From Tropicibacter sp. R16_0 (GTDB lineage: Bacteria > Pseudomonadota > Alphaproteobacteria > Rhodobacterales > Rhodobacteraceae): a DNA stretch of 64,000 nucleotides. Numbering within the stretch: the first letter of the stretch is position 1; the number at the start of each line of letters is the position of its first letter. The stretch is from assembly GCF_017743935.1 (NCBI RefSeq), contig NZ_JAGHRE010000009.1, positions 186,001 through 250,000 of the forward strand. The letters run 5' to 3'. Made by a program: the position numbers and the translations under genes. This document shows positions 40,500-55,147 of this stretch, piece by piece. The notes under the pieces were generated by a model. It was not told where the DNA came from. It saw only the letters and a list, made by a program, of their open reading frames with translations, and made no database searches.

Positions 40500-40680
40500 G
40501 GTGTCGCTGTTTGATTCTCAGACAGTGGAGAATTGGGAAGCCGGTGAAATTCCGGCACTGCCCCCGCAACGGTAAAGAAGGTCAGGTTCGGCAATCGCCA
40601 CTGGGACGAGGATCCCGGGAAGGTGCTGAACCCGGGCAAATGCCCCCTTCCAAGTCCGGAAACCAGCCTTGCAGATATGT
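40500..40680 (+). ncRNA. cobalamin (B12) riboswitch upstream of gbcAB
   Basis: The aptamer core is clear: GGGAAGCCGGTGAAATTCCG (40531-40550), then the B12 box GGCACTGCCCCCGCAACGGT (40552-40571), variable peripheral stems, and the 3' conserved AAGTCCGGAAACCAGCC (40652-40668). About 120 bases of GC-rich sequence lie between the aptamer and the GTG start of gbcA and would contain the expression platform. Most such riboswitches turn expression off when adenosylcobalamin binds, so the betaine oxygenase would be made mainly in B12 shortage. Confidence 0.92.
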
Positions 40681-40797
40681 CAAACCGCGGGTGGCGGTGG
40701 GGGCACAGGTTTCGGACGTGATCCTCGCACGGCTCCGGGCGGTTCCCTCTTGCCATCTGCCCAAGCAACGCCGCGGGGCGCGGCAGGAGAGCCAGAA

Positions 40798-42021
40798 GTG
40801 AACACCGTTGAAAGCCTGTTGGCACGCCGCAATCCGGGCTATGCGCTGGAGCAGGCGTTTTACACTGATCCCGACATTTTTCAAACCGACCTTGAAACCA
40901 TCCATTACCGCGATTGGCTATTTGCAATTCCTGCCTGCGAATTGGTCAAGCCGGGCGATTACGTCACCTATACCGTCGGCGCCTATCGGGTGATCATCGT
41001 GCGCGGCGCCGACCAGCAGATTCGCGCGTTTCACAACACCTGCCGCCACCGTGGGTCGGTGATCTGCAAGGCCGCCAAGGGCAACACGCCTAAGCTGGTG
41101 TGCCCCTATCACCAGTGGACATACGAGCTGGACGGCTCGCTCTTGTGGGCGCGCGACATGGGGCCGGATTTTGACCCCAAACAGCATGGCTTGAAAACGG
41201 TGCATTGCCGCGAACTGGCCGGGCTGATCTACATCTGCCTTGCAGAAGTCGCGCCTGATTTCGACACCTTCGCCAACACAGCGGGCCGCTATCTTGAACC
41301 GCACGATCTGGGCAATGCCAAGGTCGCCTATGAAAGCTCGATCATTGAAAAGGGCAACTGGAAACTGGTCTGGGAAAACAACCGCGAGTGCTATCACTGC
41401 GGTGGCAACCATCCCGCGCTGTGCCGCACCTTCCCCGATGACCCGGCTGTGACCGGCATCGAAGGTGGCGACACCCCACCCCACATGCAGGCACATTTCG
41501 ACCGCTGCGAGGCTGCAGGCTTGCCGTCGCAATTCTATCTGCACAGCGACGGTCAATACCGCTTGGCCCGTATGCCGCTGAAAGAAAAGGCAGAAAGCTA
41601 TACAATGGATGGCAAGTCTGCTGTGCGCCGTTGGTTGGGCCGCTCGCCGTTTGCGGATGCCGGGTCGCTGTTGAAATTCCACTATCCGACAACCTGGAAC
41701 CATTTCCTGGCGGATCATTCCATCGTCTTTCGCGTCACGCCGATCAGCCCCACGGAAACCGAAGTCACCACCAAGTGGCTAGTGCACAAGGACGCCGTCG
41801 AAGGTGTGGACTATGATCTGAAACGATTGACCGAGGTCTGGATCGCCACCAACGACGAGGATCGCCAGGTTGTCGAGGACAACCAACTGGGCATCAACAG
41901 CCCGGCCTATGTTCCCGGCCCCTACTCCGCCACGCAGGAATCCGGCGTGCTTCAATTTGTTGACTGGTATTGCTCAACCCTGGCCGATCGTCTGGCCCCC
42001 AAAACCATGGCGGCGGAGTGA
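40798..42021 (+). CDS. gbcA: glycine betaine monooxygenase oxygenase subunit (Rieske type, GbcA-like)
   Basis: A 407-residue ring-hydroxylating-type oxygenase. The Rieske cluster ligands are CRHRGSVIC and CPYHQWTY (residues ~80-105), and the mononuclear iron site starts at [16 protein letters not shown]. Overall length and the downstream reductase match GbcA, which removes a methyl group from glycine betaine to give dimethylglycine and formaldehyde. Choline- or carnitine-type Rieske oxygenases are alternatives. The GTG at 40798 has AGGAG 8 bases upstream. A cobalamin riboswitch precedes it, an unusual control for this enzyme. Confidence 0.87.
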
Positions 42022-42026
42022 GCGCG

Positions 42027-52712: not shown

Positions 52713-53431
52713 ACGTCGACACAGTCTCGGTCCACCGCGGAACGTCGGTGGCTTTGGAAGGCGTCTCACTCACCATCGCTCAAGGCAAAACGCTTGCGGT
52801 TGTTGGCGAAAGCGGGGCAGGGAAATCAACCCTGATCGCTTCGATCCTGGGCCTGCTCCGACCCTCAAAGGGCACCATCACATGGTCCGGCGCGCCGGTG
52901 CAGTCCTGCCGCCCCGCCCTGGTGATGCAAGAGCCTCGCTCTGCCCTCAACCCGGCGTGGCCCCTGTTGCAATCCGTGATGGAGCCGATCACCGCACGCA
53001 AGGCCAGGCTGTCGTCCGGCCGTCTGGAGCGGCTGTGCGCCGGTCTTGAACTGCCGGTCGAGCTTTTGGACAGGAAGTCCACCGAGATCTCGATTGGCCA
53101 GGCGCAACGTGTTGGTATTCTGCGCGCATTGATTGCCGCACCACCGCTGATCCTGTTTGATGAGCCGCTATCAGCCCTTGATGCGGTCACGCAGAAACAC
53201 ACGGCGCGCTTGATCTCGGACCTGCAGGCGGAAGAAGGGTTTGCAGCTCTGATCGTGACCCATGACCTCGGGTACGCCTGCGCCTATTCCGACGAAATCG
53301 CCGTCCTCAAATCCGGCCGTATCGAAGAGGTCAGCACGCCCCAGGCCTTTGTTACGCAACCGCAAACAGATTATGGCCGTACGCTGCGGGACGCGGCCTT
53401 TGCACTTGGCGCCTTGGAGCACGCCGCATGA
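52706..53431 (+). CDS. ABC transporter ATP-binding protein (NikE/OppF-like)
   Basis: A 241-residue ATPase (counting from the ATG at 52706). Walker A is GESGAGKST, the signature is ISIGQAQR, and Walker B is LILFDEPLSALD, with a following H-loop (VTHDLGY). The start codon overlaps the stop of the preceding ATPase as ATGTTGA. It ends overlapping the first permease by 4 bases. Confidence 0.88.
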   Translation: MLNVDTVSVHRGTSVALEGVSLTIAQGKTLAVVGESGAGKSTLIASILGLLRPSKGTITWSGAPVQSCRPALVMQEPRSALNPAWPLLQSVMEPITARKARLSSGRLERLCAGLELPVELLDRKSTEISIGQAQRVGILRALIAAPPLILFDEPLSALDAVTQKHTARLISDLQAEEGFAALIVTHDLGYACAYSDEIAVLKSGRIEEVSTPQAFVTQPQTDYGRTLRDAAFALGALEHAA

Positions 53432-54366
53432 CCCTTGGGATTTTGAGCTTGCTGGTGCGGGCAATTGTCGTCGTCAGCGGCGCTGCCATTGCCACCTTTG
53501 TTCTACTGTGGAATGCCCCCGGCGACCCGGCCTTGGCGATCGCCATGGCGCGCTTCAATTCCGTCGTCCCGGCGGACGTCGTCGATCAGGTGCGTGCCGA
53601 AGCAGGTCTGGATGCCGGGTTCTGGCCCGCATTCAAGGCCTGGATCGGGTCACTTATGGTGGGGGACTTCGGCAAATCCTCGGTCACCGGGCGCGAGGTC
53701 TGGCCCGAGTTGGTGACGGCGATGTCCTATACTCTTCCGTTGGCCGTGGCCGGTTTGATCGTCGGCCTGGCCATCGCCCTGCCCCTGGCCATCTTGGCCG
53801 CCAACAGACCCGGCAGCCTGCTGGACCGGTTTGCAATTGCGATTGCCTCCCTTGGGACGGCGATCCCCGCCTATTGGCTGGGGCTGCTTCTGGTCCTGCT
53901 CTTTGCCGTTCAACTTGCGTGGCTGCCCGCAATGGGGGCCCGCACCAGCGCGCATCTTGTATTGCCCGCGCTGACCCTTGGACTTGGCGTCGCCGCCTCC
54001 CTGACCCGGATCATCCGTTCAGGCATTCTCGAAGCACGCGGCCAGCCGTTTCTGCCTGCGTTCCGGCGCCGTGGCGTGTCAAAACGCCGGATCGAACAGG
54101 ATCACATCGCGTTGCATGCCACCATCCCCGTGATCACCGTCTTTGGGCTTGAGCTGGCGTTTCTTCTTGAAGGCGCGGTTATGGTCGAGGTCATCTTTGG
54201 CCGCCCCGGCTTGGGCGGGTTTCTGGTTCACGCGATCGAGGCGCGCGACTTTCCCAAGGTGCAGGCCGTGGTTCTGCTGACCGCAGTGCTGTTTGTGGTC
54301 GTCAACCTGATCACCGACCTGGTCTATAAGCTGGTCGACCCCCGGATCGGAGAGCACGATGCGTAA
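53428..54366 (+). CDS. ABC transporter permease (NikB/OppB-like)
   Basis: A 312-residue membrane permease with about six helices. The EAA-type coupling motif is in the cytoplasmic loop around ILEARGQPFLPAFRRRGVS, and the end has the FGRPGLGGFLVHAIEARDFP pattern of NikB/DppB proteins. The gene overlaps both neighbours (ATPase by 4 bases and second permease by 8), so the five transporter genes are one operon. Confidence 0.9.
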   Translation: MTLGILSLLVRAIVVVSGAAIATFVLLWNAPGDPALAIAMARFNSVVPADVVDQVRAEAGLDAGFWPAFKAWIGSLMVGDFGKSSVTGREVWPELVTAMSYTLPLAVAGLIVGLAIALPLAILAANRPGSLLDRFAIAIASLGTAIPAYWLGLLLVLLFAVQLAWLPAMGARTSAHLVLPALTLGLGVAASLTRIIRSGILEARGQPFLPAFRRRGVSKRRIEQDHIALHATIPVITVFGLELAFLLEGAVMVEVIFGRPGLGGFLVHAIEARDFPKVQAVVLLTAVLFVVVNLITDLVYKLVDPRIGEHDA

Positions 54367-55147
54367 CGTTCTGATCCTTGCCGGGATTTTTTGTCTGCTC
54401 GCCGTCGTGGGCCCGGTTCTGGCGCCCCAGGACCCGACCGCCATCAATATCCCCAACCGTCTCAGCCCGCCGTCCGCTCAATGGCCACTTGGCACGGATG
54501 CGCTTGGTCGGGATGTCCTGTCGCGCCTGCTCCATGGTGCGCAGTGGTCCCTTGGTCTGGCGTTTGTCGTGTCCGTGATCGGCCTGACCATCGGAACCAT
54601 TGCGGGTCTTGCAGCGGCACAGGGCGGCAAAACACTGGATTGGGGGATCATGCGCGTCACCGACACGTTCCTTGCCTTCCCCGAACTGGTTGCCGCAGTG
54701 GTGATTGCGGGTCTTTTGGGAGCAGGTACGGGCAGCCTGATCTTCGCACTCAGCGTAACGGGTTGGATGCGGTATGCACGCGTGGCGCGCGGCATCGGCC
54801 TGTCGGTCAAGACACGCGGATACGTCGTTCAGGCGCAGCTGGCGGGCCTGTCCCCGCTTGCCATCGCGCGCTGGCACTACATGCCCGCGCTGTTGCCATC
54901 GCTGACCGTGGTCTGGACCGGCATGTTCGCGCGCGCGATCCTTGGGATTTCAGCATTGGGGTTTCTGGGGTTCGGGGTACAACCGCCAACGCCCGAATGG
55001 GGGAGCATGCTGCTGGACGCCCGGGTGCACATGAGGTCAACGCCCTTGCTGATGATCTGGCCCGGCCTCGCGGTCGTGATCAGCGTTCTGGCCATCAACC
55101 TGAGCGGCGATGTCCTGCGAGATGAATTGGTCAAACAACAAGCCTGA
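54359..55147 (+). CDS. ABC transporter permease (NikC/OppC-like)
   Basis: A 262-residue membrane permease, the last gene of the ABC operon. The N-terminal periplasmic WPLGTDALGRDVLSRLLHG and late GFLGFGVQPPTPEWGSMLLD stretches are typical of DppC/NikC. Order is binding protein, two ATPases, two permeases. It ends 77 bases before the convergent RTX gene. Confidence 0.9.
   Translation: MRNVLILAGIFCLLAVVGPVLAPQDPTAINIPNRLSPPSAQWPLGTDALGRDVLSRLLHGAQWSLGLAFVVSVIGLTIGTIAGLAAAQGGKTLDWGIMRVTDTFLAFPELVAAVVIAGLLGAGTGSLIFALSVTGWMRYARVARGIGLSVKTRGYVVQAQLAGLSPLAIARWHYMPALLPSLTVVWTGMFARAILGISALGFLGFGVQPPTPEWGSMLLDARVHMRSTPLLMIWPGLAVVISVLAINLSGDVLRDELVKQQA

Follow-up and report, generated by a model that had tools for sequence, protein, structure and literature searches.

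Cobalamin riboswitches before gbcAB-like and nrdHIEF genes in Tropicibacter sp. R16_0 and the probable cobalamin-sparing role of the pair

A 64,000-nucleotide (nt) stretch of the genome of Tropicibacter sp. R16_0 (contig NZ_JAGHRE010000009.1, positions 186,001 to 250,000), referred to here as the window, carries three cobalamin riboswitches within 9.8 kb. They precede a pair of gbcAB-like genes, an nrdHIEF operon with a MazG-like gene, and a five-gene ATP-binding cassette (ABC) operon of the Nik/Opp type. An Rfam scan of the whole window at gathering thresholds matched all three to RF00174 over the full length of the aptamer and above the cut-off of 31.5 bits (Table 1), in agreement with a first-pass annotation of this DNA, which had read three complete B12 aptamers within 10 kb. 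The genome of 5.24 Mb, in 37 contigs, has eight RF00174 matches, and the presence of three of them inside 9,776 nt, a width taken from the observation itself, has a simulated P of 6e-4. The clustering exceeds chance, and the annotation had called it unusual. The genes of the operons were checked with NCBIfam and Pfam models.

Table 1. Riboswitches, genes and the Zur-like site of the three operons (window coordinates)
Feature	Position	Strand	Evidence
Riboswitch 1, cobalamin, gbc-type variant, leader of gbcAB-like genes	40482..40685	+	RF00174 115.7 bits
gbcA-like Rieske oxygenase, GTG start (inferred)	40798..42021	+	NCBIfam GbcA 504 bits < cut-off 670; Pfam Rieske and Ring_hydroxyl_A
gbcB-like reductase	42027..43106	+	NCBIfam GbcB 367 bits < cut-off 500
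MazG-like/PRA-PH pyrophosphohydrolase, behind nrdF	43169..43579	-	PF01503 46.4 bits, cut-off 21.3
nrdF, class Ib ribonucleotide reductase beta subunit	43567..44538	-	TIGR04171 488 bits, cut-off 355
nrdE, class Ib ribonucleotide reductase alpha subunit	44552..46675	-	TIGR04170 1217 bits, cut-off 750
nrdI flavoprotein	46657..47082	-	TIGR00333 150 bits, cut-off 74.65
nrdH, glutaredoxin-like	47086..47307	-	read from translation; conserved beside nrdI in relatives
Riboswitch 2, canonical cobalamin, leader of nrdHIEF	47392..47583	-	RF00174 135.3 bits
Riboswitch 3, canonical cobalamin, btuB-type leader, upstream of ABC operon	50051..50257	+	RF00174 121.5 bits
Zur-like palindrome between riboswitch 3 and ABC operon	50417..50431	+	11/12 positions of consensus
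Substrate-binding protein, NikA-like	50509..52032	+	PF00496 (SBP_bac_5); NikA models best, 216 bits < cut-off 600; closest solved chain 3t66
ABC ATPase 1	52029..52712	+	NikD model best, 137 bits < cut-off 319
ABC ATPase 2	52706..53431	+	PF00005
Permease 1	53428..54366	+	PF00528
Permease 2	54359..55147	+	PF00528

Behind riboswitch 2, NrdE, NrdF and NrdI all exceed curated NCBIfam cut-offs and identify a class Ib ribonucleotide reductase (RNR). The MazG-like gene also follows nrdF in three other loci (L168, L252 and L256). The two other RNRs of the genome belong to the B12-dependent class II (2225 > 1737 and 600 > 400 bits), and since both of these further PF02867 proteins are class II, nrdHIEF is the only B12-free RNR found in the genome. 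Two further PF02867 proteins are present in each of the four examined genomes of the genus. Class Ib NrdE is absent from the three other same-genus genomes examined, and only the genome of the window has it. Class Ib RNR depends on O2, and nrdHIEF is a candidate B12-free substitute. A sample of 295 genomes of the family was searched (G labels, G000 being the genome of the window; L labels denote individual loci), and NrdF was found in 35 of them. In 31 of the 35 a cobalamin riboswitch immediately precedes nrdH, with weak matches of 29-33 bits in two of the 31 (L164 and L171), and none was detected there in the other four (L148, L150, L152 and L179).

The best NCBIfam models for the two genes behind riboswitch 1 are GbcA and GbcB. 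Both scores lie under the respective cut-offs, and the name gbcAB-like is therefore the safest and is used here. The operon names of the first-pass annotation thus stand for nrdHIEF with its MazG-like gene and for the five-gene ABC operon, and are weakened to this form for gbcAB. The most likely start of gbcA, as read from the sequence, is the GTG at 40798 and not the TTG of the long open reading frame (ORF). Glycine betaine is likely the substrate of the encoded enzymes, judging by their sequence similarity. GbcAB, being a Rieske oxygenase, depends on O2, and the gbcAB-like genes are likely an O2-dependent alternative to the cobalamin-dependent betaine route. In Ruegeria pomeroyi that route is provided by MtgBCD, which demethylates betaine with the help of cobalamin and shares its MtgC with methionine synthesis; other bacteria are known to have GbcAB as a distinct route based on an oxygenase (PMC12478193). 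Similar to R. pomeroyi, the genome of the window encodes an MtgC-like corrinoid protein of 232 residues, which is its sole PF02607 match, along with 15 MTTB-family matches that are candidates for MtgB. Unlike the R. pomeroyi system, a gbcAB-like, O2-dependent route here stands behind a cobalamin riboswitch; the lone mention of a riboswitch in PMC12478193 is the title of a reference on glycine.

The genome of the window contains no PF02607 match in a frame of MetH size, and Meth_synt_2 (PF01717) gives a single, marginal match in a frame of 427 residues (22.5 bits against a cut-off of 21). Methionine synthesis presumably still needs B12 for these reasons, and a complete B12-free methionine bypass was rejected for this genome, the one match scarcely exceeding its cut-off. 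Betaine use therefore seems to have a B12-free alternative in this genome, and methionine synthesis apparently has none.

Relatives of GbcA occur as 66 copies in 62 of the 295 genomes (E<=1e-100), and a riboswitch precedes gbcA in 25 of the 66. On a GbcA tree of the 66 rows the riboswitch label needs 10 changes, at least six of which are forced by supported branches; the gbcA leader is thus dispersed across the tree and subject to loss or transfer. A second sample comprises 80 named gbcA loci among the matches listed. It overlaps the family sample (L304 = G090 and L270 = G141), and the two sets were not summed. The riboswitch precedes gbcA in 24 of these 80 loci, one of them with a weak match (L262, 28.8 bits).

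Both nrdF and gbcA are present in 24 of the 295 genomes, compared to 7.4 expected (35 x 62 / 295; odds ratio 12.7, p=7e-11), and they lie within 12 kb of each other in six of the 24, compared to 0.15 expected (p=1e-8). The excess of close pairs persists when the genome of the window is left out (5 of 23, p=4e-7). Phylogeny is left out of account in these P values, which count every genome as independent, and the limit of 12 kb was chosen after the pairs had been seen. The six close pairs are 2.8-9.3 kb apart (G000, G029, G090, G094, G120 and G163). Among the named loci, nrdF lies in the gbcA flank in seven of 80 (L252, L254, L256, L266, L295, L327 and L304, the last on a contig of G090). The order is convergent in the window, L254 (S. 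aestuarii), L256 (Shimia marina) and, as far as its contig extends, L252; it is divergent in L266 (Marivivens), L175 (G094), L155 and L327, and tandem in L154/L304, L295 (Salipiger), L165 (G029) and L159. Other riboswitch-led genes near gbc or nrd encode cobalt uptake of the cbiM type (L151, L252 and L313) and FecCD-type uptake (L159, L178 and L248). In L162, riboswitch-led mesXD, the genes of a B12-free methionine synthase, directly follow nrdF. MesD requires MesX and O2 and does not require cobalamin (PMC7857596), and is thus, like the enzymes of the window, an O2-dependent B12-free substitute that is riboswitch-led in this relative. In contrast to the L162 protein, which scores 93.8 bits with PF01717, the genome of the window has no convincing match. 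O2 dependence is shared by the B12-free enzymes here and in relatives, namely GbcAB, class Ib RNR and MesD/MesX. Within the family, gbcAB and nrdHIEF hold as a recurring, probably cobalamin-sparing pair. The first-pass annotation had proposed a B12-shortage island of all three operons and a search for their co-location in related genomes; the island survives for the gbcAB-like genes and nrdHIEF, which are riboswitch-led often (gbc) or mostly (nrd) and lie close together beyond expectation, and it loses the ABC operon, which takes no part in the recurring pair.

The direction of control by these leaders would most likely be repression of translation by cobalamin. This mode is considered likeliest because a simple pattern scan of the coding strand gave no terminator-like site in any of the three intervals from aptamer to gene; over the region, the scan gave nine sites, compared to 10.9 in shuffled sequences. 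By analogy, translational repression would also match almost all corrinoid riboswitches known. Leaders 1 and 2 each have a hairpin 3' of the aptamer that may form the kissing contact. In leader 1 another hairpin lies directly ahead of the ribosome site; all of these were judged by eye.

The gbcAB-nrdHIEF pair is proposed to act as a cobalamin-sparing module, and this explanation as a whole is considered probable. With ample cobalamin, riboswitches 1 and 2 would keep gbcAB and nrdHIEF off; class II (NrdJ) reductases would make the DNA precursors, and the candidate corrinoid MtgBCD system would demethylate glycine betaine. When cobalamin falls, both leaders would release expression, and the class Ib reductase and the Rieske oxygenase would take over with O2-dependent chemistry. 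The scarce cofactor would then be left for methionine synthesis, where the search gave no convincing B12-free route in this genome. Such clusters in relatives additionally contain the O2-dependent methionine synthase (mesXD), genes for the uptake of cobalt or B12, or metH. Riboswitch 3, whose leader is of the btuB type and precedes a metal-type importer, is linked to the module more loosely, and its operon may also answer to zinc.

Several observations count against this sparing module. No close pair was seen in 18 of the 24 genomes with both genes, although broken contigs conceal some pairs. A riboswitch before gbcA went undetected in two of the six close pairs (G090 and G163; L154 and L155) and in 41 of the 66 family copies. 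Both gbcAB-like proteins miss the equivalog cut-offs of their best models. The B12-using metH stands behind a riboswitch and a 100-residue ORF in L160 and L175, which is hard for an off-switch to explain, and one corrinoid riboswitch that activates is known (PMC10653944). Moreover, MtgC orthologues of at least 79% identity are present in 56 of the 62 GbcA genomes, namely in 23 of the 25 whose gbcA is riboswitch-led and in 33 of the other 37; given this near equality, the presence of MtgC was rejected as evidence that tells the two kinds of gbcA apart. The distribution of MtgC agrees with the sparing module and does not discriminate.

RF00174 riboswitches before isozymes of B12-dependent enzymes, such as metE, have been described (PMC3766115), and the present leaders share with them the aptamer family and the logic of controlling a B12-free isozyme. 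They differ from those cases in the clustering of the operons and in the variant gbc leader, and nrd and betaine are unmentioned in the main text of that paper. A cobalamin riboswitch on betaine/gbcA or nrd genes was undescribed in the titles and abstract starts of the papers listed, a scope without paywalled work such as the B12 regulation survey that Rodionov and colleagues published in 2003, and the available parts of PMC12478193 and PMC8123684 report no such riboswitches before gbcA or nrd genes. Marine roseobacters use cobalamin for betaine demethylation as well as for ribonucleotide reduction. If the sparing module is true, recurring riboswitch-led, O2-dependent replacements would reveal how B12 is rationed in these bacteria and allow a prediction on betaine turnover in waters poor in B12.

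The third part of the locus is open to a different account, in which riboswitch 3 is a relic or a recruited btuB leader, the ABC operon is a zinc-type importer on its own Zur-controlled promoter, and the third element of the island is accidental. The chances of this account fall a little short of even. The leader of riboswitch 3 is 74% identical to the btuB leader of the genome over 221 nt, and the homology continues for about 100 nt beyond the aptamer. A Zur-like box, scored against a consensus, sits between riboswitch 3 and the first ABC gene; such palindromes (11 or 12 of 12 positions, at most 220 nt upstream of the binding protein) were found in the window and in L035, L067, L068 and L069, and a scan of 12 other ABC loci gave seven positions at most. 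Nineteen of the 295 genomes have relatives of the binding protein (E<=1e-40). The 15 neighbourhoods examined in other genera divide into 13 close ones (63-80% identity), of which 11 have all five genes and two are broken or partial (L069 and L070), and two distant ones (44%). No cobalamin riboswitch was detected at any of the 13 close relatives. Four ABC relatives listed gene by gene have, by eye, a CobW-like GTPase near three of them and a Fur-type regulator near one. In the same-genus genome G001 (L035) the riboswitch and the box are kept, ATPase 1 is unmatched, and permease 1 and the FAD oxidoreductase (DAO) gene are shortened; the ABC copy has thus decayed. On the other hand, a cobalamin riboswitch likewise lies some 350 nt upstream of one of the two distant homologues (L068, genome G221), together with a similar box, an agreement judged unlikely by chance without a calculation; none was detected at the other (L067). 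In addition, the cobalamin riboswitches that PMC9600662 put to the test include a 'nikA riboswitch' from Sporomusa ovata.

The binding protein was found in none of the 100 loci L148-L247, 93 of which are gbc or nrd neighbourhoods. On this ground and on the lack of a detected riboswitch at the close relatives, the ABC operon was rejected as part of a conserved three-operon island. Similar to the NikABCDE and CntABCDF importers of metal chelates, the operon has a five-gene layout with a NikA-like binding protein, and the solved chains nearest to the latter are nickel and peptide binding proteins, led by a nickel ABC transporter (3t66). Unlike these systems, it misses the NikABCDE equivalog cut-offs for the binding protein and the first ATPase (including a further score of 123 bits against 393) and combines a cobalamin riboswitch with a Zur-like box. 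The best guess from sequence is a metal or metal-chelate importer under possible double control, where the metal would be the probable substrate.

The leader of gbcAB is a distinct variant of the cobalamin riboswitch, as its sequence indicates, and is the most novel element of the locus. The B12 box is canonical in riboswitches 2 and 3 and variant in riboswitch 1, with two of three changes compensated. Leader classes were compared over 48 gbc, 34 nrd and 29 other leaders with RF00174 matches of at least 40 bits, which omits the weak L164, L171 and L262; the 48 gbc rows hold 45 distinct sequences. The three B12-box changes recur in 47 of the 48 aligned gbc leaders, two of them again compensated. 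The diagnostic positions of riboswitch 1 are 40534, 40571, 40657, 40661 and 40665. The pair 40534/40665 of the Rfam structure is A-U in 55 of the 63 nrd and other leaders and U-A in 47 of the 48 gbc leaders, while 40571/40657 changes from U-A (62 of 63) to G-C (48 of 48), where the pairing is inferred from covariation and the Rfam bracket string as parsed gives 40656, one position off. The junction position 40661, before the ACC strand, carries G in 58 of the 63 nrd and other leaders and A in 47 of the 48 gbc leaders, a change that is uncompensated.

A gbc-class model found 30 sites of at least 109 bits in the 295 genomes, followed by a gap to 97. Twenty-four of the sites precede gbcA (22 from the training alignment) and six lie elsewhere, three of them in G047, G117 and G140; among the matches listed, one more gbcA leader, in G275, scores 95.7 bits. 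The three non-gbcA sites that were read (L338, L339 and L340) each precede an ORF of 90-94 residues that ends in an RRGGA...RR motif, and one of these genomes, G272, also has the variant before gbcA. The end of this ORF resembles that of the 100-residue ORF behind canonical leaders in L160, L175, L183 and L242. The small family gave no Pfam match for the four members tested and no NCBIfam match for the two tested.

The gbc leader may be a subclass whose altered junction reads another corrinoid, for example methyl- or hydroxocobalamin of the MtgC/methionine pool, than the adenosylcobalamin (AdoCbl) read by the nrd leader; the neighbouring operons would then gauge two branches of the B12 pool, and the same subclass would govern the small protein family. 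This extension is doubtful. In another reading, the leader works with the reverse sign or prefers a different ligand, and gbcAB would be induced by cobalamin or respond to another form of it than nrd does; this is also rather unlikely. The class-specific, strongly conserved variant with its uncompensated junction change would suit such a leader; activating examples exist (PMC10653944), and junction or binding-site residues have been tied to ligand selectivity (PMC11260477, PMC9600662). Against it, the C-rich loop expected to form the L5-L13 kissing contact is invariant in the gbc class, with candidate G-rich hairpins in the leaders by eye; the two hairpins of leader 1 stand where described above, and the same junction A occurs in four of the 63 other leaders. 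The conserved variant is in any case a ready natural experiment on the selectivity of cobalamin riboswitches.

Chance or mechanical clustering, by which an insertion hot spot beside transfer RNA (tRNA) genes collected unrelated operons, is very improbable: two identical tRNA genes do lie directly upstream, the gbc-nrd block is missing between tRNA and GNAT genes in G001, and the GC content is lower over 40.0-49.0 kb (57-60%, window 40000-48999) than over 35.5-40.0 kb (63-65%) and 49.0-56.5 kb (61-64%), but the nrd-gbc pair recurs in other genera in several arrangements.

The tRNA genes (tRNA-Glu by eye) occupy 39837-39908 and 40112-40183 (+), just upstream of riboswitch 1, and the pair is also present in G001, there without the gbc-nrd block. 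The GNAT and DAO genes at 47865-50003 (+), between riboswitches 2 and 3, are common to G001. Beyond the ABC operon, a protein of 1655 residues with Ca-binding, RTX-like repeats (by eye) is encoded at 55225-60192 (-). The other five riboswitches of the genome were assigned from translated ORFs by eye, partly supported by tblastn against relatives. They precede btuB with btuFCD-like genes (contig C17), a FecCD-type ABC operon (C11), DUF4198-cbiM cobalt uptake (C2), a cobW-cobN biosynthesis run (C31), and a cysteine-containing orphan of 132 residues near dnaX (L025, G000 C36:119296-119505), whose DUF1636 score of 16 bits is below the cut-off. The riboswitch-led orphan near dnaX is also present in G002 and G003.

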